Assembly (NCBI GenBank): GCA_964023275.1
Contig: OZ029916.1
Span: 32,910,727 to 32,974,726, forward strand
Source: Norana najaformis
Lineage: Eukaryota; Annelida; Clitellata; Crassiclitellata; Hormogastridae
Direction: 5' to 3'
DNA: 64,000 bases
This document shows positions 694 to 63,275 of the stretch, piece after piece. The first letter of the stretch is position 1. Each line of letters starts with the position of its first letter. The notes beneath the pieces are model-generated. The model was given only the letters and a program-made list of their open reading frames with translations. It had not been told where the DNA came from and did no database searches. Both the position numbers and the translations under genes were made by a program.

Positions 694-765
694 ATAATAA
701 TAATAAGACAATTTATACAGCGCCGTACCACAGCCGAGGCCGAAGAAAAGGGCGCTGTACAAGGG
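694..765 (-). mobile_element. LINE/SINE 3' end with hairpin and (TTA)n tail
   Basis: Read on the minus strand, AGCGCC is followed about 34 nt later by GGCGCTGTATAAAT and then (TTA)n. This is the shared 3' hairpin of the window, with six-base stem arms. No coding remnant is attached. Confidence 0.7.
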
Positions 766-775
766 TTCAAAAATC

Positions 776-1540
776 AACTGCAGTCATAAGATATCCTAAA
801 ACGCGGGACATGCAGTTGATTCCTCGTGTAAGACGAAACAGCCTGGACAAAAACTGCTTCGCAACAGAAGATGCCTGTCATGTTTACCGTTCGTTTTAGC
901 CTCTAATCATAGCAATTCGTCTTTGTTAAACCAACCATGCATCGTCAATCTTTCAGCACCTCGCCACCTATGCCCGCCCCTCCTTCGCTTTGTCCGTCCG
1001 TCAGTCTGTTAGTCCGTTTGTCCGCCTGTTTGTATAGGCCTACTCATCCGTCCGTCTGTTGGTTCGTCTATCCGTCCGTCCGCAATGACCTCTGTCCATC
1101 TGTCTTTCCATCCGTCGGTTCCTCCGTTTTTCCGCCAGCCATTCCAGAGGCAAAACGGGATATGCTCTAACCACCTGCAGCTACAGGGATAGCGTCGAAT
1201 AGCCGTCGATCATACGTGGAATGGTTCCAGAATCAACAACACTTGGGACTTGCCTCCTTCAGCATTCGCCTTTCTTCCAGTCATTTGTAACAATGTTACA
1301 TAATACATTATTTATGATTGCTTTGTATTACACCCATGTTGTATATATTGTATGTGTGATGAAGGAATCCGCTCGGAGCGCTCTAGACGTACATTCCGAT
1401 GATATATAGTTCGCGCTTGATGCTACTAATGGCTTCTTTCGGCGGACGATGGATTGATGTACGTTCGCCCCGTTTCCGCAGCCTGGTTATGCAGACCTGT
1501 AGCTAAAGATGACATATCTAACCATTAAATGTGAGGTTTT
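776..1540. other. No gene seen; degenerate (GTCC)n tract at 970-1132
   Basis: The TCCG/TCTG tetranucleotide tract at 970-1132 gives Ser/Pro/Val-rich frames that are artefacts. The sequence from 1133 to 1540 has no recognised feature. Confidence 0.6.
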
Positions 1541-1815
1541 AGTCTAGTCTGCTCCGATCTGCCAAGCTCGGTTGCAGTTCATTGAAGTCCCATGCACTTG
1601 ACTATATATGCAAGTGCGGTGTATATAGTCAAGTCCAATCCGGTTCAATCGAGTCCAGCCCAATCCAGTCCAGTTTAGATGTGATCTAATAATATATGAT
1701 ATCATCAGATTTGATCAGATCTAATCTGATATATGATCTGATATAATCCAATCCAAGATCAAATCTACACTAGCATCCAATCTGGTCCATTTCAGCCCAA
1801 TCCAATACAACCCGT
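1541..1815. repeat. Decayed pentanucleotide array (ATCCA/ATCTG/ATATG) with embedded hairpin
   Basis: The sequence keeps a loose 5-bp register of ATCCA, GTCCA, ATCTG and ATATG words for more than 200 bp. A 13-bp inverted repeat (1596-1608 with 1622-1634) lies at its left side, overlapping a second pairing (1594-1600 with 1611-1617). It resembles an old microsatellite tail that has accumulated mutations. Confidence 0.65.
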
Positions 1816-2684
1816 AGTCTGTCGTTATGTAGGCCCTATACGCATCAGATGACTTTCAGTCATAGATCGACGAAATTCTTGTCTTCTGGGGTGGCCTTCT
1901 TCCTTCGTGAATCCAATCAGTTTCAGTTTCAAGTTCAGTTTCAGTTTCATTTAATCCGCAATAATTGCAAAAACCGGTTCGATGTCGAAGATAGAAAATG
2001 GCAAAGTTCAAAATCTAGATCAGCCAATTCTAAACTACTGTAGATCACTTTGAAAGATGTCTGCAAACTGCTTTTATGCGCTGTTTTTACCACTGCCAAC
2101 ATCCAATCATCTCTGCAGAAATTAACCTGTTTCCATTAGAGCGTATATGATAATTGCAGAAAGACCCGTCTTAAGTCTTAGAGTAATGTTTAGAAATGGG
2201 CCACAGTATAATCGTGTTTATTAACAGAAAATATGTGTCTACACTTAGTTTCAACCCACGGGCAACTTGAAAATCGTCTATGTATAAATTGTCTCCTTTC
2301 AGTAGAAATTGTTTACAGGTAATACGCCCTGAAGCCACTGGCGGCGAAGGTGCACTCATGCAATGCCTTCTATGTACTGTACATGTAAAAGGCAGTGGCT
2401 CATGACGCTTCCAACACCTTTTAGTCTTTGCACCCCTTCAACTGAGGCTGCCTTTCACCCTCGAACCTCACAGCAAAATTTCGACCGCGGCCAAAATTTC
2501 AATAATCCAGCCCTGACGTCGATGGGTAGGTAAGCAGGTCGAATCTGATGCGACTCAAACTAGATCTGAATGACGTTAAAGAACACACGCTGGCCAACTC
2601 AATTCCACAGCTTCAGAGTGATTACGTGCGTGTATGTGGGTGCGTAGGTGTGTGTGCTTGTTGTGGATGTGTGATCATATACTT
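1816..2684. other. No gene seen; small (TTTCAG)n run at 1918-1950
   Basis: Five imperfect TTTCAG hexamers lie at 1918-1950. No open frame has recognisable domains and no RNA gene was found. Confidence 0.55.
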
Positions 2685-2756
2685 GGCATACATAATCCAT
2701 AATTATATAACTGTAATTATGGATTAAAGATGTCAATATCTTGGATTATGTATGCC
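2685..2756. repeat. Nested inverted repeat (alternative hairpins)
   Basis: Outer arms 2685-2699 and 2742-2756 are perfect 15-bp complements. Inner arms 2694-2705 and 2714-2725 are perfect 12-bp complements overlapping the left outer arm. The outer and inner stems are therefore mutually exclusive folds. Confidence 0.85.
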
Positions 2757-2833
2757 ATCTTGATTCCCTGAACTGTGTGGCTGAGTCTCTGATGCGACAA
2801 CAACGTAGTAGCTTCATTCATAATATAATTCTC

Positions 2834-2950
2834 CTAAGTAAGTAAGTAAGTAATGCATTTGTTAACACGCCATATGGCCATCGACTGAGCGAGGAATAGT
2901 AGGCGAAAATGATGTACGTTCCCCTGTGTGTTTACCCTCTCCTAAGATGT
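2834..2950 (-). mobile_element. Repeat copy with (AAGT)n end, paired with 56866-57000
   Basis: After (AAGT)n the sequence GCATTTGT.AACAC...CGACTGAGCGA matches the sequence after the (AAGT)n run at 56870. Both copies have the tetranucleotide on the left, consistent with 3' ends read on the minus strand. The family is not identified. Confidence 0.6.
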
Positions 2951-3216
2951 TGCGGCTCGTGTCTACATATTGGTCCCGAAAAAAGACGGCATTTGCTCTG
3001 TTTTATCGCTTATAACTAATTAATATTCAGTTAACTAAGTTAATATAACCTTCACACAGGAATGCAGCCGAATGCTGCATCTTTAATTTAGTATCGTCGT
3101 TCATTATAATCATCTACGAATCATTATTACTTCTAAATAAAACAAAAATATGGCACTTGTTTAAAAATATTTCTTTGTGTAGCTCTTCTGCCGCTTCCCA
3201 GAAAAGTGCCGCCCCC
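2951..3216. other. AT-rich unique sequence, nothing recognised
   Basis: This is AT-rich sequence with no long open frame, RNA gene or repeat that I can support. Confidence 0.5.
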
Positions 3217-3331
3217 TAGTTCGCCTAGTGGTTAAACCGGCCCTGAGCGCCTGTGAATAAGGTGGTTCCCGCGACTTAGCATTCGTTGGGCGCTGTAGAA
3301 ATCTTGAGCTTACGAGTACGATTACGATTAG
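3217..3331 (+). mobile_element. SINE/LINE 3' end, GTGAATAAG family with (GATTAC)n tail
   Basis: GAGCGCCTGTGAATAAGGTGG, then GTTGGGCGCTGTAGAAATCTTG, then GATTAC repeats. It matches 25830-25916 (+) and, in reverse, 9190-9250. The AGCGCC/GGCGCT stem is kept with a longer loop than in the other families. Confidence 0.75.
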
Positions 3332-3705: not shown

Positions 3706-3995
3706 TATGTATGTATGTATCACTAAATTTATATAGCGCATTTTAGTAACTCACAAAGGCGCTACAGCACAGCTACCTAATGATCTCTAAAGAGGAACAT
3801 CTTGAGACGGGCAGAGAATGTTTCTTGTACTGTTGAGCAGGCAGGAGATCGGATGTCTGGTGGAAGAGTGTTCCAGAGAGACGGCCCCACAGTGGAGAAG
3901 GCAAGACCCGCCCGAACCATCGTCCGAGAAAGTAGTACGGTGAGATGGCCGTGTGTCGCCTATGCGCATTGCATAGGCGACATTGCATAGGCGAC
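3706..3995 (-). mobile_element. LINE relic: reverse-transcriptase C-terminal tail, short 3' UTR and (CATA)n end
   Basis: On the minus strand, about 3965 to 3785 translates to the LINE C-terminal pattern LAFSTVGPSLWNTLPPDIRS...FSARLKMFLFRDH. A short 3' UTR then forms TAGCGC...GCGCTA (about 3769-3740), followed by TATAAAT and CATA repeats to 3706. The PSLWNSLP...FKxxLKTxLF pattern is known from CR1/L2-type LINEs. The 5' part is missing, as expected from 5' truncation on insertion. Confidence 0.85.
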
Positions 3996-4023: not shown

Positions 4024-4547
4024 GCTGTGTTCCACATACGCATTGCAAAGCATAGAAAGGACTACTGACGTTGTGTTTTTCTGAACACCGAGTAGACGGG
4101 TCAAGCGAGGCTTAACAGTATAGTGGGTAGTTCGCCATTTCAACGATTACTGATCCCCAATCACTCTAAGTGCGGGATTGTTCGCACAATGCCATTATCA
4201 TCCTGGTTCTTTTCTGACGCCAGGAAGTGACGTACTCATTTACGGGTTGACCCTTCCCTTGAGCTCCTATCTACCTCTGTGCTCCCAACCCACCGACCAC
4301 CTCACCAACCGAGCGAGGGAGGGATGAGTTGATTAGCCGATGCAGAACTCAAGAGCATTTGCAGAAAATACGACAGTGCTGCCACATGTGAGATGACGGA
4401 GAGTAAGGAAGAGCTGTGATTCGTCACGGCCGACGTAAATGAGGAAAGTGTGTGATTGTTCTATGAAATTATGATCAATTATTATTAACTAATTAATTCC
4501 CTATGGCCCTACAGCCATGATCGCATTATTCGTCCTGCTGATAATTT
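4024..4547. other. Unique sequence, nothing recognised
   Basis: No open frame with domains, RNA gene or known repeat was seen. Confidence 0.5.
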
Positions 4548-4643
4548 AACGCGTGTTTTAATATTAGGATGTTATTAGGTTTTTCTTGTGTTCTTAAATA
4601 CTTGTAAGCCGATGTGCGATTAGCTATTGGTTGATAAAGAATA

Positions 4644-4689
<46 letters not shown>
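4548..4689 (+). mobile_element. Retroelement 3' end with (ACTT)n tail, copy 1
   Basis: AAATACTTGTAAGCCGATG, then GCGATTAGCTATTGGTTGATAA and (ACTT)n from 4646 match 24270-24445 closely. Both copies are in the same orientation. No coding remnant is attached, so LINE or SINE cannot be decided. Confidence 0.8.
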
Positions 4690-9146: not shown

Positions 9147-9350
9147 GTGCTTGACAAAAGCTTCAGTATCTCCGGATCTCTTCAGCTCCAAGAAACTAAT
9201 TCGCGGAAACCAGCTTATTCACAGGAGCTCAGTCAAAACAAAATCGGTGAGGCAGGTAAGACCAGGATAGGTTTAAAGTCGAGATCCAAAGATCAGGCAA
9301 GTAGAAAAAACGACGGCTACGGTGGATGGTGGACAGTACGGATGAATTTA
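9147..9350 (-). mobile_element. Retroelement fragment, GTGAATAAG family, reverse of 25690-25870
   Basis: Read on the minus strand, CCACCGTAG..., GATCTTTGGATCTCGAC, CGATTTTGTTTTGACTGAG and CCTGTGAATAAGCTGGT match 25740-25860 in order. The (GATTAC)n tail is absent. Confidence 0.7.
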
Positions 9351-14187: not shown

Positions 14188-14400
14188 GTGATGTATGTAT
14201 GTATGTATGCATGTATGTATGTATGTATGTATATATGTATGTATGTGTGTGTATGTATGTATGTATGTATGTTTGTGTGTGTATGTGTGTATGTGTATGT
14301 AGGCATGTATGTATGTATGTATTTATGTATTTATCAGTGTTTGTTTCTTACTATTTAGATAGCGCCTTTTAAGGCCTCCGAAAAGCGCTTCACCACAGCT
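14188..14400 (-). mobile_element. LINE/SINE 3' end with long (CATA)n tail
   Basis: On the minus strand AGCGCTTTT...AAAAGGCGCT (14384-14356) forms a stem, followed by ATCTAAAT and then about 150 bp of imperfect CATA/CACA repeats. The tail length far exceeds that of most copies. Confidence 0.75.
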
Positions 14401-18812: not shown

Positions 18813-18920
18813 GAATTATTGAAACAACTTTAAAACGATTATGCAATTAGATGTTACTTTATGTTATGTTGTTTAATTTTATGCTATGCAGTACTATGCT
18901 ATGCTATCTTATATGAAGAT

Positions 18921-19127
18921 GAATTACTTTTGATTTTGGACTCAATATTTTGAGTTTTAAATGAGTTCGTTTGCTTGCTTGACCTGCTTTTATATATATA
19001 TTTATTTATATATATATTATATATATATTATATATATATATAAAAGAAGGTCAAGCAAGCAAACGAACTCATTTAAAACTCCAAACTTTTTTTTGAGTAT
19101 ATTTGAGTCCGAAATTAAAAGTAATTC
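18921..19127. mobile_element. Foldback (hairpin) element with TA-rich loop
   Basis: GAATTACTTTT...GGACTCAA at the left returns in reverse complement at the right end (19091-19127). The inner arm GAGTTTTAAATGAGTTCG...GACCT (18952-18986) is matched at 19048-19082. The arms span about 85 bp each around a TA-rich centre. One arm carries small insertions. No coding sequence or clear target-site duplication was seen, so it is a MITE-like foldback or an inverted duplication at a TA tract. Confidence 0.85.
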
Positions 19128-20274: not shown

Positions 20275-20545
20275 CAGATGTATATATACCGTATATATAT
20301 ATGTATTTATATATGTATGTACGTACGTATATATGTATGTATGAATGTATGCTAGTATCTGAATAATTGTATAGCGCCTGTAAAAGATCTCACAAAAGCA
20401 CTATGCAAGAGAGAGTTCCTGAATGAGAGGCAATAAAAAGCGCTATATTGTTTTCATACATAGCTACAGACACATACAGACATACATACATACATACATA
20501 CACATACATACATACATACGCATACAGACATACATAAAAGGCATA
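20275..20545. mobile_element. Two retroelement 3' ends back to back, flanked by (TATG)n and (CATA)n
   Basis: Left: (TATG)n to 20350, then GTATAGCGCCTG (minus-strand 3' end). Right: AAAAAGCGCTATATTG at 20436 followed by (CATA)n to 20540 (plus-strand 3' end). Only about 75 bp separate the two GCGC cores, giving a mirror-like unit with complementary microsatellites on both sides. Confidence 0.7.
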
Positions 20546-22470: not shown

Positions 22471-22690
22471 TCTTCATCAGATAGTTTCTTCCTCCTTCCA
22501 TCCGCCCATCCAATCAACGTTGATGACGGAGACGACGATGATGTCAACAATACCAGACTACATAAAAGCCGTTTCAATTGTTCGGCACAAGCACGAAGAC
22601 TGAAATCTACGAATACACTTCTCTTCGAAAGCAGTGTCATATATATACCTATAGCCACACTATGTATAGCGTCACTTCAACAATCAACAA

Positions 22691-23370
22691 AGGAAGTGCA
22701 AAGCACCCGACAGGTATATTAAGTGCGAGAATACTGTAAAAGTACACTTATCCTGGTCCAACTTCAAAGAAACTCGTCGGTTTACGCGAAGAAAATGATA
22801 TATCATATATTATAATATACTCTATTATAGCCAGCATATACCTATGTGTGTGCTTAGATGTAGCTTGCGATTTGTCATGGGTGCAGCGGGGAGAGACATA
22901 TATATATATATGTATATATATATATGCATAGCTAGCAGCATAATCCATGGGGACTCCGTGTGGGGGAATAGTCTGAGGCGACATGTTCCTTTCCCCTATG
23001 CGAAAGAGCAACCTACCAATGTGTAAATACTTATATGATATGCACGTCGCAAGAATTGATAAAATATTATATTCATATTGATTAATCCATGCATCTGCCC
23101 ATCTTATAATCCTCTTCTTCATTACGTAGGCATATATGCTTATGAAATGTATTGTAATGCAGCTAGAAATTTGTATAACGCCTTCTAATTATCTATGGAA
23201 ATCGTTACCCGAGCTGAATAGATATAGGCTATAGGATGCATAAATCGCAGTTGTTGATGTTTTGATGCTATCCTGGAGTTAATTTTCGTCGTATGGCATC
23301 ATCATCATCAATAACAGGATCCGGGGCTTCTTGTGCTGCTGCTGCTGCTGCTGCTATTGCTGCTGCTGAG
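22691..23370 (-). repeat. Left arm of inverted duplication (about 680 bp)
   Basis: Its reverse complement matches 31686-32351 almost base for base from AAGGAAGTGC at the outer end to the CAGCAG run at the inner end. Differences include a 10-bp indel (in the right arm near 32063), a shorter CAG run on the right and scattered substitutions. Both arms contain the same 46-residue stretch MKKRIIRWADAW...; it has no homology I recognise and probably reflects DNA identity only. Confidence 0.95.
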
Positions 23371-24245: not shown

Positions 24246-24267
24246 TATATTATAATATATAATATAT

Positions 24268-24445
24268 AGTTTAACGCGTAAATCTTTTATTAGTAGGATG
24301 TTATATGCCTGTTAAGTTTTTCTTTTGTCATTAAATACTTGTAAACCGATGTGCGATTAGCTATTGGTTAATAAGGAATATATTTACTTACTTACTTACC
24401 TACTTTCTTGCTTAGTTACTAACTAACTTACTTACTAACTTACTT
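24268..24445 (+). mobile_element. Retroelement 3' end with (ACTT)n tail, copy 2
   Basis: AGTAGGATGTTATATGCC, TTAAATACTTGTAAACCGAT and GTGCGATTAGCTATTGGTTA match copy 1 at 4548-4689, followed by a more broken ACTT/ACTA tail. It directly follows SINE A, separated by a TA run. Confidence 0.82.
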
Positions 24446-25689: not shown

Positions 25690-25916
25690 GAATAGGCTTC
25701 TTCCTCTTATCTGCCTCTGCTCTCCAGCCCCAAACATCACCCACCGTAGCTGCCACGCTGTCTCTCTCTGCCTGACTCTTGGATCTGGACCCGGAACCGA
25801 ACCCTTTTGCCTATCGATTTTGTTTTGACTGAGCGCCTGTGAATAAGCTGGTCCCCGCGGCGCGGCTTTCGTTGGGCGCTGTAGAAATCTTGGGATTACG
25901 ATTACGATTACGATAG
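25690..25916 (+). mobile_element. SINE/LINE 3' region, GTGAATAAG family, with (GATTAC)n tail
   Basis: CGATTTTGTTTTGACTGAGC, GCCTGTGAATAAGCTGGTCC and GTTGGGCGCTGTAGAAATCTTG precede four GATTAC units. It is the best copy of the family also seen at 3217-3331 and 9147-9350 (reverse). Confidence 0.8.
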
Positions 25917-26034: not shown

Positions 26035-26440
26035 TCACAAATTGCAACGCAGTAGTGGATTGGTTATTGATTTAGTTAACAGTCTGTCATAATAACCTTG
26101 AGAAGAGGAGTTTTCAGTGACCAAACGAAACATGTAAGTGCATATGGCTGTTGAGACAAGTTTACGGACAATAGGGCACGGGCGCCTAAATCTTAGGAGT
26201 TGAATATAGGTCAATGGGCGAGGACGTCGCCAACACCTTTCAAACCTGCTGCGCAGCCTCCTGGCATCGCCAGCGTCTGAGTTGTACCAGGGCTGCAACC
26301 TCTTAGACTTAGTAGGTATGTGCCTACAAGTGGTACTTGGACTTAATATGTGCTGATCCAGGATTTCAGATAGGGTTGAATTTAGTTGGGCAGATAGTTC
26401 GGTAACTGTGCAGGGGACGACCACAGGGGGAGGCAAGAAT
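26035..26440 (-). mobile_element. LINE ORF2 relic: endonuclease-RT linker
   Basis: A 133-residue open frame reads TELSAQLNSTLSEILDQHI, then KSKRLQPWYNSDAGDARRL and RRFERCWRRPRPLTYIQLLR-like basic sequence, then a block resembling K---FYS-K. In CR1/L2-like LINEs this is the linker between endonuclease and RT (LD-HAP...PWY---L---KR--R--ER-WR). It is a genuine element fragment with an intact local frame but no flanking RT. Confidence 0.82.
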
Positions 26441-26480
26441 ATCAGCTTTGAAGGTTGAAATGTCGAACATTTTACAAGGG

Positions 26481-26600
26481 CGGTAACTAATCTAATCTAA
26501 GAACTTCTATAGCGCCACTGTAATAATGCTCAAGGTATGGTCGATGCTAAGCAAAATCATTGTCCAAACCAAATTCCATGGTGAGTCCGGAATAGGTAAC
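26481..26600 (-). mobile_element. LINE 3' end, TTAGA family
   Basis: On the minus strand: CATCGACCATACCTTGAGC, GGCGCTATAGAAGTTC, then TTAGATTAGATTAG. Same terminus as 26920-27255; possibly the 3' end of the relic at 26035-26440 after rearrangement, though that lies downstream of it on this strand. Confidence 0.75.
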
Positions 26601-26919: not shown

Positions 26920-27255
26920 ATAGCACTCGATCAACTGACCCTGTGACACTTGTTGTGCCTCGTACCAAGACAGTGTTGGGCTGTCAACCGTTCTCAGTAG
27001 CTGGTCCGAAGCTTTGGAATTCGCTGCCCAGTTCAGTGAGATCTGTTAGTTCTTTCATGTCATAAGACTCACCTTTTTCAACTCGCTTACCCATCGTAGC
27101 CCAACTTCTGATTTCTCTGACCTACCAGAATTTTACATGGCTTTACAAACGGATTCTGATCATTGATTACGATTTTACTCGAAGTGACCATCGACTGAAG
27201 CCTTGAGCATTATGAATACGGCGCTATAGAAGTCATTAGATTAGATTAGATTAAA
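26920..27255 (+). mobile_element. LINE relic: RT C-terminus and complete 3' end, TTAGA family
   Basis: 26925-27055 translates to LVVPRTKTVLGCQPFSVAGP, KLWNSLPSSVRSVSSF, the LINE C-terminal signature. The 3' UTR runs through CATCGACTGAAGCCTTGAGC to GGCGCTATAGAAGTC and ends in (ATTAG)n. This is the reference copy for the TTAGA family (others 26481, 33455, 39385, 5750). Confidence 0.88.
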
Positions 27256-28529: not shown

Positions 28530-28585
28530 TTGCGCTTTTGAGAGATGCTTGAAAGGCGCTATATAAATGCTTGTTACATTACAGA
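28530..28585 (+). mobile_element. LINE/SINE 3' end with (TTACA) tail
   Basis: GCGCTTTTGAGAGATGCTTG followed by AAAGGCGCTATATAAATGC forms one of the clearest copies of the 3' hairpin. TTACATTACAG follows. Confidence 0.8.
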
Positions 28586-28689: not shown

Positions 28690-28922
28690 CTAACATTATG
28701 TAAGTATGTATATATGTATGTATGTATGTATGCATGAATGCATGTATGCATTCATGCATATATTTGTAGACGATATTTCCTATACAAGGCCCGCTTCAAA
28801 CTTGCTGATAATATTACCTTCTCATTATTTATTTGTGTTTGTTTTATTTATGTATGTATATATGTATGTATGTATATGTAAACATTTATATAGCACCTTT
28901 TAAGAAACTGGGAAAGGCGCTC
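28690..28922 (-). mobile_element. LINE/SINE 3' end with (CATA)n tail, and nearby TATG array
   Basis: Minus strand: AGCGCCTTT...AAAAGGTGCTATATAAAT (28920-28884) is a nine-base stem with one G-T wobble, then CATA repeats to 28845. A separate TATG/CATG array lies at 28690-28760. Confidence 0.8.
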
Positions 28923-28925
28923 ATG

Positions 28926-36530: not shown

Positions 36531-37117
36531 GACAAAGTATAGGTCAATTCTGCTTGACCATCTGTCGCATATTGAGAAGGGTCAGAACGACCTTTCATCC
36601 TTAAGTCCTTCTGTCCATCCATTTCACCGTCAGTCTTGCATGGAGGGATGTTATAGCATAATTTTTTTGCCTCATTTGATAACTGCTCACTGCTGGCGAC
36701 TCCTGGTTTATGCGGAAGGGACGAAGGTGCAGTCCTTGTGCGCCGTAAATCTGCGGCCTGGAGCCACGAATAAATACTGACCCCAGTTTCGACGTTCCCT
36801 TTACCCCGGACGATAGGTTAACGAGGAGGCGACATTCGTCTCTGACGCAGAGACGTAACCTGCGGCGCGTTGACGTCCACTTTTAATACGTCGCAGGTGG
36901 CGCTAGAGTCGTTTACGAACTCGCAATTGGTAGCTCGATATGTGTGCCCGTGTCCAGTCTTAAGATTAAAGTTTGGCCACAGACACTAGTCCAGAAAGAA
37001 CGTTCGTATAACAAGACTGTGATTCGAATCCTTGGCCTTTCTCAGCATCTTCTCTATAAGCTTTTAAAACTATTCTTTCCTATTGTGGATTTGTCCTGTC
37101 GTATCGGAAGCGTCTCT
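36531..37117. other. No gene recognised
   Basis: 36700-36930 is CpG-containing unique DNA with GAGACGTAACC and GTTGACGTCC words. No open frame has motifs. Confidence 0.45.
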
Positions 37118-37175
37118 AAGGCGTTTCTTTCAAAAAGGCGCTGTATAAATTAATGATTACAATTACAAATTACAA
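37118..37175 (+). mobile_element. LINE/SINE 3' end with (ATTACA)n tail
   Basis: AAGGCGTTTCTTTCAAAAAG, GGCGCTGTATAAAT, then GATTACAATTACAAATTACA. Confidence 0.8.
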
Positions 37176-37740: not shown

Positions 37741-37890
37741 GTATGTATACAGGTATTGTATGTATGTATGTATGTCTGTGTATGTTGTATGTATGTATGT
37801 ATGTATGTATGTATGTATGTGCATGCCTGTATGCATGTATTTATGTATGTATGTATGTATGTGTATGTATGTATGTTATGTGTGTATTTA
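37741..37890. repeat. (GTAT)n array
   Basis: Imperfect GTAT tetranucleotides directly abutting the LINE 3' tail at 37898; probably an expanded extension of that tail. Confidence 0.9.
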
Positions 37891-37897: not shown

Positions 37898-38275
37898 ATC
37901 GTAATCGTAATCAAAAACTTATAAAGCGCCACTTCAAGATAAAACTCATCAGAGGCGCTCCCGGCCCAATTTCCCAAAACTAATGGGGAATAACACGGTC
38001 TTCAAACGCTTGCGGAAAAGAGATGGAGTAGGAGAGAGGAATTCCCGCCTAAGGTCACCAGGCAGGTTGTTCCAAGAGGCAGGGCCAACAACGGCGAAGC
38101 TGGGACGCTGTGCAGTAGTAGTGCGAGCCATAGGAACTACCAGGTCTCCCTGGACTGTCGATCGCAACAGTCGGCGGCCAGGGACAGAAGAAACAGGGAC
38201 ACAGAGCTCCCTTAGATAAATAGGTGCACTGCCAACAAGGCAGCTGAGCACAAGGGCCAGAATTTTAAACTTCAT
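37898..38275 (-). mobile_element. LINE relic: RT C-terminal 108-residue open frame with full 3' end and (GATTAC)n tail
   Basis: Minus strand 38275-37949 is open: LSCLVGSAPIYLRELCVPVS, RRLLRSTVQGDLVVPMART, then SFAVVGPASWNNLPGDLRR and SLFRKRLKTVLF. The 3' UTR carries AGCGCC...GGCGCT, TTATAAG and GATTAC repeats at 37898-37912. The intact frame suggests fairly recent insertion. Same family as 12130-12718. Confidence 0.92.
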
Positions 38276-38450
38276 TTATGTATGTATGTGTGTATGTATG
38301 TATGTTTTTGTGCATCCATTCATGCTGTATGTATGCAAGCACGAATGTATGTATGTGTATACGTATGTTTATATATATTTGTATGTATATGTAGGCATAT
38401 ATGTATGTATCTGAGCTTTTGTATAGCGCACTGAAGGACCTTCCACAAGT
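38276..38450 (-). mobile_element. (CATA)n tail and worn 3' end of a second element
   Basis: TATG repeats (38276-38412) lead to TTTTGTATAGCGCACTG at 38417, the reverse of a terminus. The two LINE ends are thus arranged in series, each behind a TATG array. Confidence 0.7.
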
Positions 38451-39050: not shown

Positions 39051-39057
39051 TCTATAC

Positions 39058-39300
39058 TGAGCTGGTTTGCTACATTGGTTAAAGAGTACGCCAAGTCGCC
39101 TCTAGGCAAGAAGATGCCGGTTCGCATACCCATAGTGGCTGTATTTTAGAGATTTTAATCACGGTTTAGCAAGGTCCGTACACGGGAACCTTGAGTGACG
39201 CGGTGCCCATTTAAACGGGCAGCGGTGGTGAAGGATTTCACCCGATAAATTCATTTTAAAATGAGTAGGTCGCTATAGAAAACATGTACATTTACATTTA
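39058..39300 (+). mobile_element. tRNA-headed SINE, family B, near full length
   Basis: Head GAGCTGGTTTGCTACATTGG (A box) and GCCGGTTCGCATACCC (B box). The body shares ACACGGGAACCTTGAGTG, GGCGGTG-CCCATTTAAACGG and CGATAAATTCATT with 41215-41420. A (TTTACA)n end follows TCGCTATAGAAAACATG. Confidence 0.85.
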
Positions 39301-39384
39301 CAGTATATATAGTGCGGTTCGCCAGTTGTATAATTCGCCTGATGTGTGATCCATCTTTTGTGATGCCAGCCTCTCGTGGCTCAA

Positions 39385-39560
39385 TCTAATCTAATCTAAT
39401 AACTACTATAACGCCGTTATAGGAGTGCAAAAGGCTTCAGTCGATGGTCGCTTCAAGTGCAATCGCAATCAAAAGTAAGGTTCCGTTGGAGAAGCCCGCT
39501 AGGAAACCGATAGGCTAGTGAAACCAGAAATCAGGCTGCGGTGGGTAAACAAGTTGAAAC
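39385..39560 (-). mobile_element. LINE 3' end, TTAGA family
   Basis: Minus strand: TTACCCACCGCAGCCTGATT, CTTGAAGCGACCATCGACTG, AACGGCGTTATAGTAG, then TTAGATTAGATTAGATTG. Best match to the 26920-27255 copy. Confidence 0.82.
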
Positions 39561-40990: not shown

Positions 40991-41425
40991 CTGGCCTGGT
41001 TAGCTACACTAAAGCGTACATCAAGGCACTACACTTGGTCTGACACACATTGACGTCACAATCGTCGCCATGGTATCTCAGCTGGCCTGGTTATCTACAT
41101 TGGTTAAAGAGTACATCAAGGCGCCTCACTTGGCCTGGCACACATTGACGTCACAATCGTCGCCATGGTATCTCAGCTGGCCTGGTTAGCTACATTGGTT
41201 AAAGCGTACGTCAAGGCACCTCTGCGCGTGAGAATGCCGGTTCGCATATTGGCTATTAATTCAGAGATTTAAATCTCTGGTTGACACAATCCTTACACGG
41301 GGACCTTAAATGGCGTGGCGCCCATTCAAACGGACAGCGGTGATGAAGGATCCCACTCGATAAATTCATTGAAAAATGAACAGGGTCGAAACCATACGGT
41401 CGTTATTGAAAACACGTACAGTTCG
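40991..41425 (+). mobile_element. SINE family B with tandemly repeated head
   Basis: CTGGCCTGGTTAGCTACA starts at 40991, 41082 and 41177 (periods 91 and 95 bp). The first two units each carry ATTGACGTCACAATCGTCGC. Only the third continues into the B box (GCCGGTTCGCATATTGG) and the body shared with 39058-39300. The element ends at TCGTTATTGAAAACACGTAC. Confidence 0.85.
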
Positions 41426-41880
41426 TTAGTCATACGCATTAATTTTTAACTGGGCTCTTGAAATCGTTCCGTTTACATTTTCTAAGTTCATTCGTTCTGT
41501 TAATTTTTGTAGCGCTACTTCGAAATATTCTGTCCACCTTTCGTTTGTTTCGTTTTTCGATGCGTTGGACAATACAGAATTACATTTTAAAAATTTTCTA
41601 GTATGAGTTTCATTCGTCGCTGGTGACCAATAAAATGACTTGAATTGACGTAATTTCTTCTTGGAGAAACATGTAGAACACTGAAATTAAGATGAAATGG
41701 CTTTCTACCACTAGGTGTGTGTTCCACTGACCAGGGTCACAGGGTCACTGAAATCATATTTTACCAACCAACACTTAAACACTGGTCTCTTGCGCCGGAT
41801 ATATAAATGCAGGTAGCACTTCCAAGTGAAGTCCAAGTTGGCGCTCTACAAGTATTATGAATAATTGAAAGAAAGACCGA
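41426..41880. other. No gene recognised
   Basis: Unique AT-rich DNA; nothing supported. Confidence 0.5.
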
Positions 41881-42320
41881 GCAAACGAACGAACGAACGA
41901 AAAAATTAACGAATGAATGAACCGTTGAATATACAGGCCCCCTTCCTGTATGTGTGTATGTATGTCTGTTTTTGCATATATGCATGTACATGTGTGTGTA
42001 TGTCTGGGTTTGTATGTCTGCATGTACATGTATGTGTGTGTGTGTGTATGTGTGTATGCGTGTGTGTGTGTGATGTATTGGCGTGTGAAGGAGAGAGCCG
42101 AAGAATTCGTTTATCGTTCCAATCGAGAAAGCTTTGCTGTACGATCGTCAGAAATGAGACAATTTTCCTATTACCTGTGGATACAGCGATCCATCTCCTC
42201 TGTCATGCTCATGACGTGCGTCAGCATATTCGTGTGAGTGAAAGAGGCAGACAGACAGACAAACATACACACAGGCAGACAAACAGACACACAGACAGAC
42301 AAACAGACACACAGACAGAG
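41881..42320. repeat. Simple repeats: (AACG)n, (GTAT)n/(GT)n, (GACA)n
   Basis: (AACG)n at 41883-41902, GTAT/GTGT at 41948-42072 and GACA/ACAG at 42246-42320. 42075-42240 between them is unique with no motif. Confidence 0.85.
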
Positions 42321-43140: not shown

Positions 43141-43540
43141 TGCAAGATTGTACATGGCGATGATCTTGGCTACTCTCTCTGTTTGGTCGGCCGCATGTAT
43201 CTTTCACTATCCAGCAACGCCCCATCGCCGTAAAATGCAGATGGAGGAAAGAAATGAGGCGTAGTTGCTGGATCCGCCAGTGCTTCGAGGGTGGATGGTC
43301 GTGCCTTCTCAGTGGTTCGGACTTCAACGTGAAAGTTCCTTCCTCGACTTTTGCATCTTCCCTGGCTACCTTTTATAAAAGCTTGAAAACTGCAGGCTGG
43401 TGCTTCTGAACAACATTCAAGCACTGAATGAATGTTAGTATTCTCATACTGCATGCGAGTAAGTAAGCGTGATTCTACCACCTTCGAATAGCACGAAACG
43501 GGTTTCGTGCGTTACATAACGACTTTACTATTGTGCATTT
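43141..43540. other. No confirmed gene; 103-residue minus-strand frame
   Basis: The minus-strand frame at 43170-43481 has an ATG and a TATAAAAG about 100 bp inside it, but no recognisable domain. GC content is higher than in the flanks. Confidence 0.4.
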
Positions 43541-43710
43541 GAAGGTTCAAAAGGCGCTATACAATTATTCAGAGACCAATAGTCAAATAATAGATATACA
43601 GAAGCATGCATACACACATTATACACACATACACATACACATACAATCATACAAATATGCCTACATACATACTCATACAATCACATAAACATACATACAC
43701 TCATACTTGG
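43541..43710 (+). mobile_element. LINE/SINE 3' end with (ACAT)n tail
   Basis: TTCAAAAGGCGCTATACAATT at 43547 is followed by ACACAT/ACATAC repeats from 43608 to 43710. Confidence 0.7.
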
Positions 43711-44514: not shown

Positions 44515-44580
44515 ATCTGAACATTTATGAAGCGCCTTACAAGGGCCTAATAACTGCGCTATATAAACATATTTAACCTC
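44515..44580 (+). mobile_element. LINE/SINE 3' end, symmetric copy
   Basis: ATTTATGAAGCGCC and GCGCTATATAAAC face each other across 22 bp, so the terminus reads from both strands. Confidence 0.65.
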
Positions 44581-44979: not shown

Positions 44980-45030
44980 CTCTTGAAGCGACGCTATATA
45001 AATATCCTATTCCAATTACAATTAAACTAA
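44980..45030 (+). mobile_element. LINE/SINE 3' end with (ATTACA)n tail
   Basis: GAAGCGACGCTATATAAAT followed by CCAATTACAATTAAAC. Confidence 0.65.
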
Positions 45031-49524: not shown

Positions 49525-49796
49525 GTTATATGTATCTGTACATTTATATAGCGCCTTTAGGGTCCTCTTAGATGCGCAGTCATCGCAGCAGAGGTTCTAG
49601 TGTTGAGGTCTCTTTCGGCTGAGGCACAAACACAACGACAACAGAAAGACAGCAACGTGACAACCTCTCCATATGAATCACGTGGCCAGAAAAACAAACG
49701 GCCAAATTCTGAAGGACGCATTCATCGGGATTCGAACCCAGGACGCAGAGGTCAAAGGCAGACGTGCTCACCACGGGTCACACTGTCCCGGACAGG
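49525..49796 (-). mobile_element. Complete tRNA-headed SINE (family E) with LINE-type 3' tail
   Basis: Minus strand from 49796: GACAGTGTGACCCGTGGTG (A-box region), CCTGGGTTCGAATCCCG (B box, about 49741-49725), a 130-bp unique body, then CTAAAGGCGCTATATAAATG (about 49560-49541) and ATACAT. A tRNA-like promoter joined to the same 3' terminus as the LINEs is the classic SINE/LINE partnership, in which the SINE borrows the LINE machinery by sharing its 3' end. Confidence 0.88.
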
Positions 49797-51109: not shown

Positions 51110-51445
51110 CTTAATATAGCGCCGGTCTCCCTGACTCAGCTCTTGTGTGACTCTGAGAAATTTCACATTACATTACAAAGCCCTCCTTATATTGTATTAT
51201 TTCTGATCATTTGGCCGAGGCACAAAGTAAGACAAATCAATCCAACGACAGTTGATCTTCTGCCTACGGTTCTACGGTTCCCTCTCGATGTAACGGGTTA
51301 CTTACCGGAGGATCTTCTGGCCGTTGCTTTTGATTTGGAAAGATGAACAAAGTAGAGCATTGTAATTGTAATTGTAATTTAAGATTTATAAAGCGCCTTT
51401 TAGAGAATAAACTCAACAGGGGCGCATAGTGCATATATATGCATA
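51110..51445 (-). mobile_element. Two minus-strand LINE/SINE 3' ends
   Basis: TAATATAGCGCCGG at 51114 is a worn end. The clearer one has (TTACAA)n-type tail ATTGTAATTGTAATTGTAAT at 51360-51380, then TTTATAAAGCGCC and GGGGCGC (51420). Confidence 0.7.
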
Positions 51446-52050: not shown

Positions 52051-52090
52051 AGAGGAGACTTATTTAATATATCTACCTAAGTAAATGCTG

Positions 52091-52133
52091 GCTTATATTG
52101 CTTGTTTTAGATTTGCAACATTATAACGTCACG
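52091..52133 (+). promoter_or_regulatory. Probable 3' splice site and 5'UTR stub before the receptor start codon
   Basis: The pyrimidine-biased run ending CTTGTTTTAG at 52110 resembles a splice acceptor 24 bp upstream of the ATG at 52134. This suggests a non-coding 5' exon further upstream. No matching donor was identified with confidence, so transcription could instead start close by. Confidence 0.5.
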
Positions 52134-52677
52134 ATGAACAATTCAACGAATCTGCAGTCGCTAGGCGTCGACACCGCGCCTTACCAGAATGACGTCATGG
52201 GCGACAGCGGCCTCCGCGTTCTCTTCATCTCGATGTATTGCGTCATCTTTCTGCTAGGAATTTCTGGAAATTCTCTCGTTGTCTACGTGGTCGTGTGCAA
52301 CCACGCCATGCAGACGATTACAAATGTATTCATAACAAACCTGGCCATTTCGGACATCATGATGTGTCTTCTGGCCGCACCATTCACGCCTCTGTCCGGC
52401 CTGCTCGAGTCGTGGGTGTTCGGGGAAGCCCTCTGCAGAGTGGTTCCGATGAGCCTCGGTATCAGCGTGTACGTCTCGACTCTGACGTCAGTCGCTATCG
52501 CCATCGATAGATATTTCGTCATCGTTCATCCTTTCAAGTGAGGGCGCGTTTTCGTCCATCCGCTCGATCCGTTGTAGACGTCTTTGCATGCACTTTGTTG
52601 ATCTCCTTGCTGGTTTATTTGCAGAGTGCGCAATTGGATGCATTGGGAGGGTATAGTGGCAGTTCCAAGGGCAGACC

Positions 52678-52733
<56 letters not shown>

Positions 52734-53839
52734 GTTGTTGTTGTCGTTGTCGTTGTCGTTGCCGTCGTTGTATACAATATTAATTGGGGCGTTATAGAAG
52801 TTTAACGTAGATTTGCACTTTAGAATTAATACTAAATAATAATCTAGTCGGTTATATAAAACTTATACAGTTGAGAGGTTATATAAGTTTATCTAAATAT
52901 TTGCGATATATAGAACAACTGCAAAATAATAACTCGTCATAATTATGTCCTACAGTGCATTGGTGACGAACTCTAGACAGTCTACACCAAATCGTTGCAT
53001 TTTTCAGACCACGTATGAAGATTCCGGTGTGTGTGGCCTTGATCATCTCGATCTGGATCGTGTCCATCTCCGTTTCTCTTCCACTGGCCGTCTACCAGGA
53101 GGTCTCCTGGATCCCGACGGAACAGATCTACGTCTGCCGCGAAGCATGGCCTCACCCTGCCGCCCGCAAGTTCTTCACCGTGGCCAGCCTCATCCTCCAG
53201 TACATCATCCCGTGCAGCCTCATCATCTTCTGCTACGCACGCGTGTCCATCGCCCTCAATCGCCGCGCCCGCTCCCTTGTGCGTCGGGGCATGCGCACTA
53301 AGGCGGCGAGCGAACGTCACCAAATGGCCATCGACCGGAAGCGACGTACGAACCGGATGTTGATCGCGATGGTCGTCATCTTCGTCCTGTGCTGGCTTCC
53401 GCTCAACGTAGTCCTGCTCATACTCGAGTACCACGAGGGCCTCGAGAAGTGGAACTACTTCCTGTTGACGTTCTTCACGGCGCATGTCACGGCGATGAGC
53501 TCAACGATCTACAACCCGTTCCTCTATGCCTGGATGAACGAAAACTTTCAGACAGAGTTTCGGAGGGTCCTGCCTTGTCTGATCTCGAGCGGGCGCGTCG
53601 TCAAACGTCCCACACAAACCGGGGTCTCCATCTCGCTCTATTCGGTCATGGAATCCCAGATTCCTCTTCAGCGAACACTGTACACCGTGCCCAAATGCGA
53701 GAACGGAAATTACCCGGTCCAGCACAAACTGGCAGAAGACCCGCAGGAACCGGAAGTGGCGTGTGACCACGACAAGAAGCAGTCACGTGATCAGTTGGAA
53801 TTTCCCGTCGACACGATGAACGGAAATTCAGCGCGATGA
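52134..53839 (+). CDS. sNPF/PrRP-type neuropeptide G-protein-coupled receptor, two coding exons (join 52134-52537, 53008-53839)
   Basis: Seen: joining the exons gives 411 residues. The start ATG at 52134 follows a likely splice acceptor at 52110 and puts two overlapping N-glycosylation sequons (N2, N3) in a 28-residue extracellular tail. TM1 carries GN (N46), TM2 NLAISD (D74), C101 precedes TM3, TM3 ends in DRY (125-127) followed by HPFKPRMK, TM4 has W151, the ECL2 cysteine is C178, TM5 P203, TM6 CWLP (263-266), TM7 NPFLY (304-308), and C325 is a possible palmitoylation site before a serine-rich tail. Known: HPFxPRMK, KRTNRMLIAMV and the AMSS...YNPFLYAW(L/M)NENF stretch are typical of short neuropeptide F receptors, orthologous to vertebrate PrRP receptors. 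Inferred: a plasma-membrane receptor for an amidated neuropeptide, coupling to heterotrimeric G proteins. NPY-type receptors are the nearest alternative. The frame is open with GC-rich codons, unlike the AT-rich surroundings. No clear AATAAA was seen downstream. Confidence 0.94.
52538..53007 (+). other. Phase-2 intron of the receptor gene
   Basis: The donor GTGAGG at 52538 and acceptor TTTTTCAG ending at 53007 join AA to A, making Lys135 and restoring the conserved HPFKPRMK stretch. Without splicing, exon 1 stops at TGA 52539-52541. The intron sits just after the DRY motif. It contains an (ATT)n microsatellite (52679-52731), a GTTGTC-rich stretch (52732-52765) and a worn LINE 3' end (GGGGCGTTATAGAAG, about 52775-52805). 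Confidence 0.9.
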
Positions 53840-54139: not shown

Positions 54140-54415
54140 TCCTAATGGTGAAGGAGCTTTTGGCTGAAGCGCAAACAGAACAACGTCGTAACTTTTCAGA
54201 GGTTGGGCCGTCTACCTGGAATGCTGGGATGGACTCCCGCTTGATCTGCGTGTCCTTCATCGACCCTACGAACGCCTTTCGTCAACACTTGAAAAGTATT
54301 CTTTTTTGTCTGGTCGGATTAGGAGCACCCATGAGTAGGGGCGCTACACAAATGAATTAGTGAAAGAACGAAGGAACGAACGAGTGAACGAACGAACGAA
54401 TGAAGAGCAACTGGA
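54140..54415 (+). mobile_element. LINE 3' fragment with (AACG)n tail, 300 bp after the receptor
   Basis: FSEVGPSTWNAGMDSRL...FRQHLKSILF (about 54200-54310) is a worn LINE C-terminus. AGGGGCGCTACACAAATG at 54340 and (GAAC)n to 54405 complete the 3' end. Confidence 0.75.
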
Positions 54416-55334: not shown

Positions 55335-55645
55335 AGACGTAAGTCTGTATTTAAAGCTTTACACTGGCTTCTTGTTTAGCAAAGGATTTGTTCCAAGTTT
55401 GGGGCTTATAGTTTGTGAAACTTTGAACTATGGCTAACCACAATATTTACAATCAGTCTTATTCTCATCATTCAATCAAATTATCTGATTGCCTTTCTGT
55501 GTCATGCCTAAGACTAGAACTGCTTTTGATGAAGGGGTTTTTCGGTTGCTGGACTTAGATTTTTAAACTCTCTTCCTGTATCCGTTCGTTCTGCTCAGTC
55601 GCATGTGTCATTTCGTTCTCAACTTAATACTTGCATTTAAAAAAA
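55335..55645 (+). mobile_element. Worn LINE RT C-terminal relic
   Basis: In shifted frames: FKALHWLLV-QRICSKF (55338), MPKTRTAFDEG (55503), then VAGLRFLNSLPVSVRSAQSH (about 55550) and VSFRSQLNTCIF. This is the LHWLP--QRI...RTAF-E--F-VAGP--WNSLP--VR pattern with several substitutions. Confidence 0.78.
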
Positions 55646-56489: not shown

Positions 56490-56705
56490 AGTTCCTGGTC
56501 GATCTTGCTTACGTTCTGCGACCAACCGAAATCTCATAGTTTCAAAGATTTACACTGCATTTGTTCTCGTGGATTTTGTTACTCTTGCCCCACAGTGTGG
56601 AATGCCTTACCGACTAGCATCAAAGGTAACAGTCTTCCATTAACAAGTTTTAAAAAGAAGCTTAAAACTAACATGTTTAATAGGTTTGCATCGATTTCTG
56701 TGCAT
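56490..56705 (+). mobile_element. LINE RT C-terminal relic
   Basis: The open frame 56505-56714 reads SFKDLHCICSRGFCYSCPTV, WNALPTSIKGNSLPLTSF, KKKLKTNMFNRF, the WNxLPxxIK...FKKKLKTxxF signature. Its 3' end is diverged and followed by (TAA)n. Confidence 0.82.
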
Positions 56706-56814
56706 TCGTATTGATCTATAAAACATGATATTACTCGATATGAGGTAGGAATATTTTAGGGTCGTTGCACGCAATATGAGGCTGTTGTTAATTGAGCGAG
56801 TTATAAATGTCTGT

Positions 56815-56816
<2 letters not shown>

Positions 56817-56865
<49 letters not shown>

Positions 56866-60110: not shown

Positions 60111-60147
60111 ATATAATAATACTTATTAAAGTGATGTATATATACAC

Positions 60148-60410: not shown

Positions 60411-60464
60411 TCTCGATGAGGATTGGACAAAACCTGATTGCACAGTTAGTATGTACGTACTGTG

Positions 60465-61315: not shown

Positions 61316-61499
61316 TCTTGTAAACTTGACAATTCGTTGTCAAATGAGGTAAAGGTAATTCACAAATACTCGTTGAATTCTTGTCTTCGAAAAGATACTT
61401 CAACTATATTTCCATGCCTCTGAGATTAAAAATGACATATAATTGATTACCATACCTTTCCTATGAGAAAGATAGAGTATATACACATGGTTTTGTTTC

Positions 61500-62215
61500 A
61501 GTTATTTGGCCATAAATTTAGATAACTCTGAGGCGATCTTGTTTGGCTGAAATCAGCGTCTGCGTTCTCTCCCTTCACATTCCAGCATTGACCTATAAGC
61601 TGGCACTGCTGTTCAGCTATCAAACATGATCAAAATACTTGGGCAATTTTGGGCAGCAATCTCACATTTCAACTCCACATAACAAACCTTTTGCAAATCT
61701 TGTTTCTCTCATATCAGGGCATTACGTAACATCAGGTCTGCTCTGACCAAGACATGACACAAACTGTAGCCTGTTCTCTAGTCTGCTCTCGCCTTGATCA
61801 TGCCAACTCGGATTTTACAGGTATCTCAATTCTTGAACTCAAAAGATTTCAACACATCTAAAATTCCCTGGCTCGTGTGGTGCTGCTTGCACCTCCTCAC
61901 ACAAATTCCTTAGCACTATTAAGCCAGCTGCATTGGCTTCCTGTGGAATTCCGGATAAGATTTAAACTATAGCCTGTATGACCTATAAAACTCTCACCAT
62001 GAGCACTCCTCCCTACCTTCAGTCAATAGTTTCTCCTTACGTCCCTCCCCGCAGCCTACGATCTTCAGGTATGGGTCTCTTGGCTGAGCCACGTTGCAGA
62101 ACTGTCCTGGGCTCTCGTGCATTCCACACCGCTGCCCCGAAGGAATGGAACCGTCTACCAATGTTTCTCCAAAACTCGAACTCCTTTTCTTAATTCAAGA
62201 AACGCCTGAAAACTC
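61500..62215 (+). mobile_element. CR1-type LINE relic: RT thumb to C-terminus
   Basis: In-order, frameshifted motifs: NSEAILFG (61520), AGTAVQLSNMIKILG (about 61600), HIRALRNIRSALTK (about 61710), VACSLVCSRLDHANSD (about 61770), LARVVLLAPPHTNSLALLSQ, LHWLPVEFRIRFKL (about 61930), MTYKTLTMSTPPYLQSIVSP, PPRSLRSSGMGLLAEPRCRT and FHTAAPKEWNRLP (about 62130). This is the full run from the KTE-LFG block to the C-terminal WNRLP signature. An (AAT)n array follows at 62330-62398. Confidence 0.92.
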
Positions 62216-62329
62216 ACTATTTCTCACTGGCTTTCAAGCATCTGGATATCTAACTCTTTTCACTTGGCAACTGACTATCCGCGCCTCCAATCGCATTTCT
62301 GTGTAACTTTGCGCGCATTAAAAATTGTC

Positions 62330-62398
<69 letters not shown>
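62330..62398. repeat. (AAT)n trinucleotide array
   Basis: About 22 uninterrupted AAT units. Confidence 0.97.
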
Positions 62399-62814
62399 TA
62401 GGCATAAATAAGTTCCTGACGCCATCTATTTGATGGTTAGGGTGCGAATAAATTACCTCCAGTCTTTTCGGTCGTTTGTTAACTCTAGTGCTGTTCTCGT
62501 GTTTAATCCAAGCCTTGTTATGTCTTCGTTAATATTGTCTATGCAGGGTAAAGACAAGCTTAATTCATAACCTTATTTCATTTCGAACACGAAGTTGTCT
62601 TTCCTTTTGGTTTACTTTATGTTAATTATCACTTGTGTCATTTTCTGTAACTCAGTATGCCTTATCTTGCAGAGCCTTACCTGGAGTTGTACCATACCGG
62701 TCCTTAACTTAAGCTCTAACTTAATTACCTTTTCTTATCTGGCTTCACCTTTTACCTACCATAGACCTACCAATTACTCGCTGTAGGCGTTACACTGGCT
62801 GAGATCATCTAGTA
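62399..62814. other. No gene recognised
   Basis: Unique T-rich sequence with one 63-residue hydrophobic frame (62595-62786) lacking support. Confidence 0.45.
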
Positions 62815-63180
62815 ATTCTGCAGGGATTTTGTGAGGCTCTAAATGGGGCTACATAAATGTTAAGGTACATACATTACGTTACGCTTTGTTTTGTTTTGTA
62901 TCACCTATCCTAACCGTGCACAGAACCTCATGTGACTTTCGACGTAACTTAGACGATGTTACCTTACTTTACCTGACCTTACCGTGACTCATTTGATGTC
63001 ACCATGCCTCAGCTGATGGAGTCGTACTTCAGTTCACTTTGCTTACCTCGCCTAACCTGACATTACTTACTTCATCAGACATTAACACTCTTTTCCTGAC
63101 ATTATCCAGCCTCTTCTGACATCATCTTGCCTTGGCTGACGACTTGCCTTGCCTAGCATTCTCTACTTAACCTTGCCAAA
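62815..63180 (+). repeat. Worn LINE/SINE 3' end followed by a decayed (TTACC)n pentamer array
   Basis: TTTGTGAGGCTCTAAATGG, GGCTACATAAATG, ACATTACGTTACG, then about 300 bp in which CCTTACTTTACCTGACCTTA-type words keep a 5-bp beat (62930-63170). Interpreted as a long pentanucleotide tail in decay. Confidence 0.7.
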
Positions 63181-63231
63181 AGTCGTCACTTCTTTAACTG
63201 TCCAGGGTTGAGTAGCATACTCACGACATCT

Positions 63232-63275
63232 GAGAGCTCTAAAAGACGCAATATAAGTGGCCAGATACATAGCTA
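63232..63275 (+). mobile_element. Worn LINE/SINE 3' end
   Basis: GAGCTCTAAAAGACGCAATA then TAAGTGGCCAGATACATAGC parallels the end at 56400-56445 (GGCGCCATATAAATAGCC...CTACATAC). Confidence 0.5.

Follow-up and report, generated by a model that had tools for sequence, protein, structure and literature searches.

A recurrent terminal box and hairpin beside LINE C-termini and microsatellites in a 64-kb stretch of the annelid Norana najaformis

We analyzed a 64,000-nt stretch of the genome of the annelid Norana najaformis (hereafter the window: positions 32,910,727 to 32,974,726 of contig OZ029916.1, assembly GCA_964023275.1), in which a short terminal box, in part of its copies the right arm of a hairpin, recurs at what are probably the 3' ends of long interspersed nuclear elements (LINEs), in places followed by a microsatellite; all counts refer to this one 64-kb window, both strands. 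The box is 14 nt long, with a consensus of about GGCGCTATAYAAAT, and was scanned for with a position weight matrix built from ten 14-nt seeds; because the seeds were taken from or patterned on copies in the window, the seed sites match by construction. Thirty-six sites reach 14 bits, whereas 30 dinucleotide-preserving shuffles average 0.63 (largest 2); 44 sites reach 12 bits, with 2.97 expected from such shuffles; and the exact string GGCGCTATA occurs 10 times where 0.30 would be expected (100 shuffles, largest 2). Among the 44 sites, 711/751 and 44523/44555 are paired arms of single hairpins, and the boxes at 23169 and 31855 sit within one duplicated inverted repeat (672 nt, 94% identity), so that the 44 sites amount to 41 places. 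The copies of that repeat (22690-23347 and 31688-32351) lie 8.3 kb apart and carry an internal box-like motif. The original prediction, made from the letters alone, spoke of about thirty retroelement ends sharing one hairpin and named seven copies; every one of the seven is present on reading the window, and the box count (36 at 14 bits or more; 41 places) fits the claim of about thirty places. The observation is real but smaller than first claimed.

As a class, the hairpin upstream of the box exceeds chance. Under a helix rule in which the pairing had to take in the core of the right arm, the 44 sites at 12 bits or more had a mean best-helix energy of -10.42, compared with -8.78 +/- 0.40 for shuffled flanks (lowest of 100: -9.87), -7.78 for random window flanks and -9.43 for flanks exchanged between sites. 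A GCGC left arm lies 8-50 nt upstream of 16 of the 44 boxes, compared with 2 of 44 in a downstream control of equal length and a mean of 4.1 of 44 at random window positions (maximum 13 in 300 draws). What stands of the hairpin claim is therefore an aggregate excess over shuffled, random and downstream controls; what does not is its generality, since the GCGC arm is confined to those 16 boxes and, taken singly, only 6 of the 44 sites pair better than their own shuffles at the P<=0.05 level, and two of these are arms of one hairpin (5 such sites came out of an earlier, narrower helix rule, run on a hand-picked list of 44 that overlaps this one). Many boxes have no convincing stem. At E<=0.05 a covariance model recovered its 13 training copies and 9 new rows, 22 in all; it scores the box too, and neither the training copies nor the questionable new rows are counted as stem evidence. 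Among the new rows, 44528 on the plus strand is 44523 read from the opposite strand, 23169 is part of the duplicated inverted repeat, 44984-45003 is just 20 nt long and so cannot hold a hairpin, and 43529-43566 (plus strand, E 5.7e-5) has a decayed stem.

The clearer copies are spread over both strands. On the minus strand, a hairpin with box and CATA tail is found at 3727-3766 (tail toward lower coordinates), at 20365-20405 and at 44523-44563, and one at 14353-14392 has a CATA array downstream. The hairpin at 28884-28924 has a GGTGC right arm with a G-T pair and a tail read as CATA by eye and as TAA by script, that at 711-759 has a 9-bp stem (TACAGCGCC/GGCGCTGTA) and the tail TTATTATTA, and that at 51384-51429 has an ATTACA tail and an AT-rich array adjoining its 5' side. 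At 49542-49581 the box has a weak 4-bp stem and a short CATA-like stretch by eye, with no tandem unit by script. On the plus strand lie a hairpin and box with an ATTACA tail (37106-37150), another whose tail has no clear tandem unit (28528-28568), and a box, GGCGCTCTACAAGT, with an (AACG)n tail (41840-41901).

Some of the boxes follow coding remnants. A six-frame motif search found five stretches of the form WN.LP...F..RLKT.LF, which we take to be a CR1/L2-type LINE C-terminal motif, and a hidden Markov model (HMM) built from them found two more copies (E 3.9e-5 and 3.8e-4), making seven at E<1e-3; the best E in one shuffled window was 0.83, and 5 of the 7 copies are those from which the model was built. 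Within 250 nt downstream, four of the seven C-termini lead to a box of at least 12 bits on the same strand and none of the seven to one on the opposite strand, where random placement gives a mean of 0.63 (P 0.002). On the minus strand, the C-terminus at 3780-3953 (WNTLP ... FSARLKMFLF) runs to a stop and then to the hairpin at 3766-3727, and that at 37976-38152 (WNNLP ... FRKRLKTVLF) has its stop codon within the region of the hairpin and box at 37917-37962. On the plus strand, the C-terminus at 26940-27095 (WNSLP, family F1, described below) precedes the box GGCGCTATAGAAGT with its (ATTAG)n tail at 27220-27253, and that at 54175-54309 (the HMM match at E 3.8e-4) belongs to an open reading frame (ORF) continuing into the box GGCGCTACACAAAT, which has a (GAAC)n tail (54340-54404). 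The other three, all on the plus strand, lead to weaker relatives of the box: 56523-56690 (WNALP ... FKKKLKTNMF) to the divergent terminus AGCGAGTTATAAAT (56795-56865, 7.4 bits) with a (TAA)16 tail, 62071-62235 (WNRLP ... FKKRLKTHYF, one stop) to CGCGCATTAAAAAT (62312-62397, 8.4 bits) with a (TAA)22 tail, and the decayed C-terminus at 55515-55634 (the HMM match at E 3.9e-5) to a weak box at 55779 (9.3 bits), 145 nt downstream. All but these two HMM matches helped to build the model. With four of seven C-termini reaching a box and the other three a weaker relative, the proposal that many termini are LINE 3' ends of the CR1/L2 sort is borne out: in the window the termini do cluster with LINE C-termini, and their pairing beats that of shuffles in aggregate.

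A second protein feature may point to the L2 clade, rather than serve as a phylogeny. The pattern PW.{13,17}E..W has a single six-frame match, PWYNSDAGDARRLRSRFERCW, at 26230-26292 on the minus strand, in an ORF at 26035-26496 of the same strand; a looser version also matched at 39371, minus strand. The spacing in PWYNSDAGDARRLRSRFERCW, P-W-x15-E-x2-W, is that of Pro324, Trp325, Glu341 and Trp344, which Hayashi and colleagues describe in the tail-binding region of ZfL2-2 (PMC4176376). The LINE fragment that holds this peptide is preceded on its strand by an F1 box with a GATTA tail (26503-26516, minus strand), and it is not tied to any one hairpin.

Tails were compared with boxes in a set of 73 merged arrays of period up to 8, taking boxes of at least 11 bits within 70 nt. 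A box points at the array in 16 of the 73 and away from it in 3, with a mean of 4.3 under random placement (maximum 10, of 200), so that the proposal that most arrays began as tails holds for only about a quarter. The tail units at boxes include CATA, GATTA, ATTACA, ATTACG, TAA and GAAC, among others. By repeat class, AATCT, AACG and AATCGT arrays are all associated with a box (2/2 each), ACAT arrays in 5/11, with two more beside weaker boxes, and single associations occur for AATTAC (1/1), ACACAT (1/1), AGC (1/1), AAG (1/2) and AT (1/8); no box of this strength accompanies ACAG (0/7), ACGG (0/3) or AAGT (0/3) arrays. The script assigned the AATCGT array at 637-654 to the box at 711, but the array's orientation is wrong for that box, and it looks like the tail of a decayed copy of family F2. 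No tandem array is present at 49541, where an AACG tail had been described; the AACG arrays at a box are those at 41884 and 54362. The element at 37917-37962 (minus strand) has (GATTACG)2 as its own tail, and by eye we take the CATA beyond it for part of the tail of an older element, split by the insertion; we read the array at 37741, one of the five box-associated ACAT arrays, in this way. The older terminus, whose array was seemingly split, lies at 38277-38430 (minus strand, 11.4 bits, CATA tail). TACT-type arrays form a separate tail class, two of three ending a boxless element (4541-4687 and 24266-24424, 82% alike).

The DNA upstream of the boxes is mostly unrelated between copies, apart chiefly from two families and the duplicated 23169/31855 pair. 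F1 comprises 27220, 39402 and 33463 and, less closely alike, 24578 and 26503; a GATTA tail is present in 4 of these 5, and the box of one copy (39383-39415, minus strand, 11.5 bits) has an (AATCT)n tail. F2 comprises two plus-strand copies, 3243-3328 and 25829-25914 (88% over 86 nt, GATTACG tail), and a remnant near 9202-9331; box and tail are common to its copies and the 5' extent differs, the upstream part being longer in 25829 than in 3243. Since the likeness of 3243 to 25829 starts at CTGAGCGCC, the hairpin base, 3243 looks like a hairpin plus its GATTACG tail alone; 51384-51429 likewise is seemingly hairpin plus tail alone, truncated at the hairpin base. It had also been proposed that short interspersed elements (SINEs) share this terminus, for which we found no support: ARAGORN called no tRNA in the window, where decayed or truncated heads could escape it, and Rfam gave no tRNA, 7SL or 5S-derived head family there up to E 5. 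A GTTCGCCTAGTGGTTAAACC stretch before 3243 had suggested that F2 might be a SINE; this was dropped, the stretch being absent from 25829 and from the 9202-9331 remnant, and no tRNA being called. The further proposal that the ends descend from one terminal structure fares better, as the copies can be aligned over the box, the stem and a portion of the loop although the DNA upstream is mostly unrelated.

In our view it is probable that several related LINE families of the L2/CR1 sort have left numerous decayed, 5'-truncated copies in the window, and that the stringent 3' tails of these families are inherited; the feature is a mostly ordinary, if well-represented, instance of a known design. Box, hairpin subset, C-termini beside boxes and tails are observed directly; the nesting of one element in another was judged by eye. 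Each family would end just past its ORF in the inherited box and, after it, a tandem unit specific to the family; in the better-kept families the box would form the 3' arm of a GCGCC...GGCGC hairpin. The remaining steps are drawn from published work on the L2 clade: the part of the protein that separates the endonuclease from the reverse transcriptase (RT) would bind the stem of the RNA generically and its loop specifically, and reverse transcription would then start and slip on the tail unit, seeding a microsatellite in each new copy. In stringent L2-clade LINEs this part is described as having a general affinity for the stem and a specific one for the loop, and retrotransposition is abolished when stem-loops are exchanged (PMC4176376). 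In two of them the loop is element-specific (PMC4176376), which argues against the free sharing of one structure for which, in the original prediction, families might compete. A role in slippage as reverse transcription begins has been suggested for the tandem tail units (PMC2653535, PMC3747384).

Several results weigh against this reading. Three of the seven C-termini have no box of at least 12 bits, and none of the three AAT (TAA) arrays has a box of at least 11 bits, two having weaker ones. Pfam searches of the LINE fragments tried gave no RT or endonuclease, so that clade membership rests on motifs; these include GVPQGS and YADD, which we take to be RT motifs. No intact RT was found in the window, and sequence searches of the Protein Data Bank (PDB) with short RT-like pieces gave either 0 matches or a single one, to an unrelated protein at E 0.82; apart from receptor models, the only Pfam match was zf-C2H2, at E 0.058, under its cut-off. 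None of 120 Rfam matches in the window up to E 5 is to a LINE 3'-end RNA such as UnaL2. As to the stem, 28 of the 44 boxes have no left-arm GCGC, the helix rule gives no stem for the box at 27220, which follows the LINE C-terminus at 27015, and compensatory change was sought by three tests in the window and not found. When the arms of 16 chosen hairpins were re-dealt, own arms formed 139 pairs as against 136.1 +/- 3.08 (P 0.22 overall; P 0.051 for the inner three pairs, 0.78 for the outer four and 1.0 for the core). In an alignment of 13 sequences 84.6% of cells pair, a figure matched by 49 of 500 shuffles and biased upward, the bracketing structure being self-set and the alignment picked from clear hairpins; one pair has a change on both sides. 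RNAalifold predicted five core pairs, none of them with both sides changed. In columns 5-8 of the alignment every departure is a G-U (3/52 cells), and all are C-to-T transitions, two at CpG; outside the alignment, the copy at 54340 carries a pair-breaking change (GCACC). The sequence GGTGC confirms the G-T wobble noted at 28884-28920, but C-to-T decay of a CpG would give it as well. The statement that stems stay paired therefore says little more than that the two arms are almost constant.

In one alternative, the conserved terminal signal would be the box by itself (GGCGC plus TATAAAT), and the hairpin would arise incidentally in some families, where this palindromic, GC-rich box happens to have similar sequence upstream. 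Besides the 28 boxes without a left arm, 38 of 44 pair no better than their own shuffles at P<=0.05, and own arms pair no better than swapped ones; because both arms are nearly invariant, variation hardly tests the pairing. Against it stand the 16 of 44 boxes that have GCGC where a left arm would lie, compared with 2 of 44 downstream, and the alignment of the left arm and of an AG block in the loop despite mostly unrelated upstream DNA, while absent arms could have been removed by 5' truncation and CpG decay. We regard this alternative as unlikely, though not strongly so.

One could also envision elements that prefer to insert into existing microsatellites, so that the arrays would be targets rather than tails. 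LINEs that choose microsatellites as targets are known (PMC4640811), the 51384 copy adjoins an array, and the 37917 copy lies between two CATA arrays, beside the box at 38417, with a possible 10-bp duplication, ATACATAAAT, seen by eye and weak in so simple a sequence. However, the repeat unit matches the family (GATTA in 4 F1 copies, ATTACG in 2 F2 copies), and an array lies 5' of a box within 70 nt in just 3 of 73 cases, a count confined to that distance; we find this explanation improbable. Finally, the inverted repeats could be the termini of short DNA transposons (miniature inverted-repeat transposable elements, MITEs), with microsatellites as unrelated neighbors, as the identity of arms such as TATATAGCGC/GCGCTATATA on either strand and the outward-facing 20365/20439 pair with CATA arrays on both sides might suggest. 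This is very improbable, given that arrays lie toward the box 16 times and away from it 3 times, that LINE C-termini lie upstream of boxes, and that in F2, the sole family examined in this respect, the 5' extent varies while box and tail are shared. In the pair just mentioned (20365-20536), the boxes at 20365 (minus strand, 16.8 bits) and 20439 (plus strand, 5.4 bits) face outward about 60 nt apart with a CATA array outside each, and could be two insertions or a twin-primed one. A long, near-perfect inverted repeat with a TA-rich center at 18910-19120 appears MITE-like by eye.

Read as LINE ends, the termini resemble several described systems. Like ZfL2-1, ZfL2-2 and UnaL2, they combine, in part of the copies, a putative 3' stem-loop with a tandem-repeat tail, in those elements with a generic stem and a specific loop (PMC4176376), and a window ORF has the four tail-binding-region residues at the ZfL2-2 spacing; UnaL2 ends in TGTAA repeats (PMC3747384). 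They differ from these in having several tail units and loop sizes within 64 kb and no Rfam LINE match, the tails being likened by description and not letter by letter. The HAmo SINE and HAmo LINE of cyprinids likewise involve an L2-clade LINE and a stem-loop 3' tail, with a variable number of TAAATG units (PMC2653535), but they form a LINE-SINE pair, whereas here no SINE was shown and the units are others. RTE elements in Lepidoptera, described as seeding microsatellites, share the C-terminus followed by an extremely short 3' untranslated region of simple sequence repeat units and the many 3' fragments; they belong to another clade, and the abstract mentions no hairpin (PMC2887409). V-SINEs, which include the molluscan RUDI, are SINEs with LINE-like tails of the L2 kind; they differ in that no tRNA was called in the window.

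Sequences like the box were also sought elsewhere. The pattern GCGCYTT-N5-30-GGCGCTATATAAAT had 0 matches in a viral contig collection and 3 in a genome contig collection (one in Persicobacter, two in Thalassospira), which we treat as chance, about 6 being expected by a hand estimate. In a report on salamander microsatellites, the primer of locus Dicten27 contains GCGCTATATAAATCC, followed by (ATAC)18, and that of Dicten20 contains CGCACTTTATAAATCCC, followed by (TACA)18; a box-like primer end occurs in 2 of 7 loci of the passage concerned, and 6 of the 7 are CATA-type arrays (PMC3002275). This suggests that box and CATA tail may be old and widespread, as a selected example, the loci having been found through the box letters. 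A salmon probe matching the box letters was judged irrelevant.

The window also holds features unconnected with the termini. A Rhodopsin-class G-protein-coupled receptor gene lies at 52068-53839, probably in two exons (parts 1-92 and 92-260 of the 7tm_1 profile) with a TAT array between them; it also matched the related models Srsx and Srx below their cut-offs. A 95-nt tandem repeat occurs at 40991-41379 and 39057-39264, with two copies 93% alike at 41010-41199, and 41182-41379 is 77% like 39062-39264. Long purine/pyrimidine-biased minisatellites with 52-nt and 106-nt periods occupy 34332-34786 and 33212-33430.

The loops of these hairpins had been said to differ; their lengths do vary, from 11 to 31 nt, but the aligned loops keep an AG block a few nucleotides into the loop in common. 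Six hairpins with a tail read as CATA have loops of 11-12 nt, and the other seven have loops of 12 (tail unclear), 16, 17 and 17 (ATTACA or ATTACG), 20 (TTA), and 31 and 31 nt (F2, GATTACG). With tails labelled by eye, the association of loop length with a CATA tail has an exact P of 0.0023 (0.0043 with one F2 copy), relatedness being ignored; with script labels it is 0.077 (0.125 with one F2 copy). By-eye labels were used for the tails of 711, 28884, 37917 and 49542, for which the script gave none, TAA, CATA and none, respectively. Loop size thus seems to follow the tail unit, as a lead and not a result. To a bolder extension we give rather little credence, because the association weakens to that P of 0.077: several L2-like LINE lineages in one genome would hold stem and TATAAAT box constant while loop size and tandem unit change together as a natural recognition code (11-12 nt with CATA, 16-17 nt with ATTAC(A/G), 20 nt with TTA and, in F2, 31 nt with GATTACG), the variable loop-and-tail part might keep related LINEs apart, and the hairpin-plus-tail copies might be the smallest passengers of the code.

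Some microsatellites of the window (CATA, GATTA, ATTAC, AACG and probably TAA) gain a source, and the CAGA, GTCC and TACT arrays, which have no box, are set apart from them. Self-recognition by LINEs has been studied in zebrafish, by artificially exchanging the stem-loops of two elements (PMC4176376). If the pairing of loop and tail holds genome-wide, the genome of N. najaformis would be a source of many naturally occurring variants on which to test how a stringent LINE distinguishes its own RNA from the RNA of its relatives.

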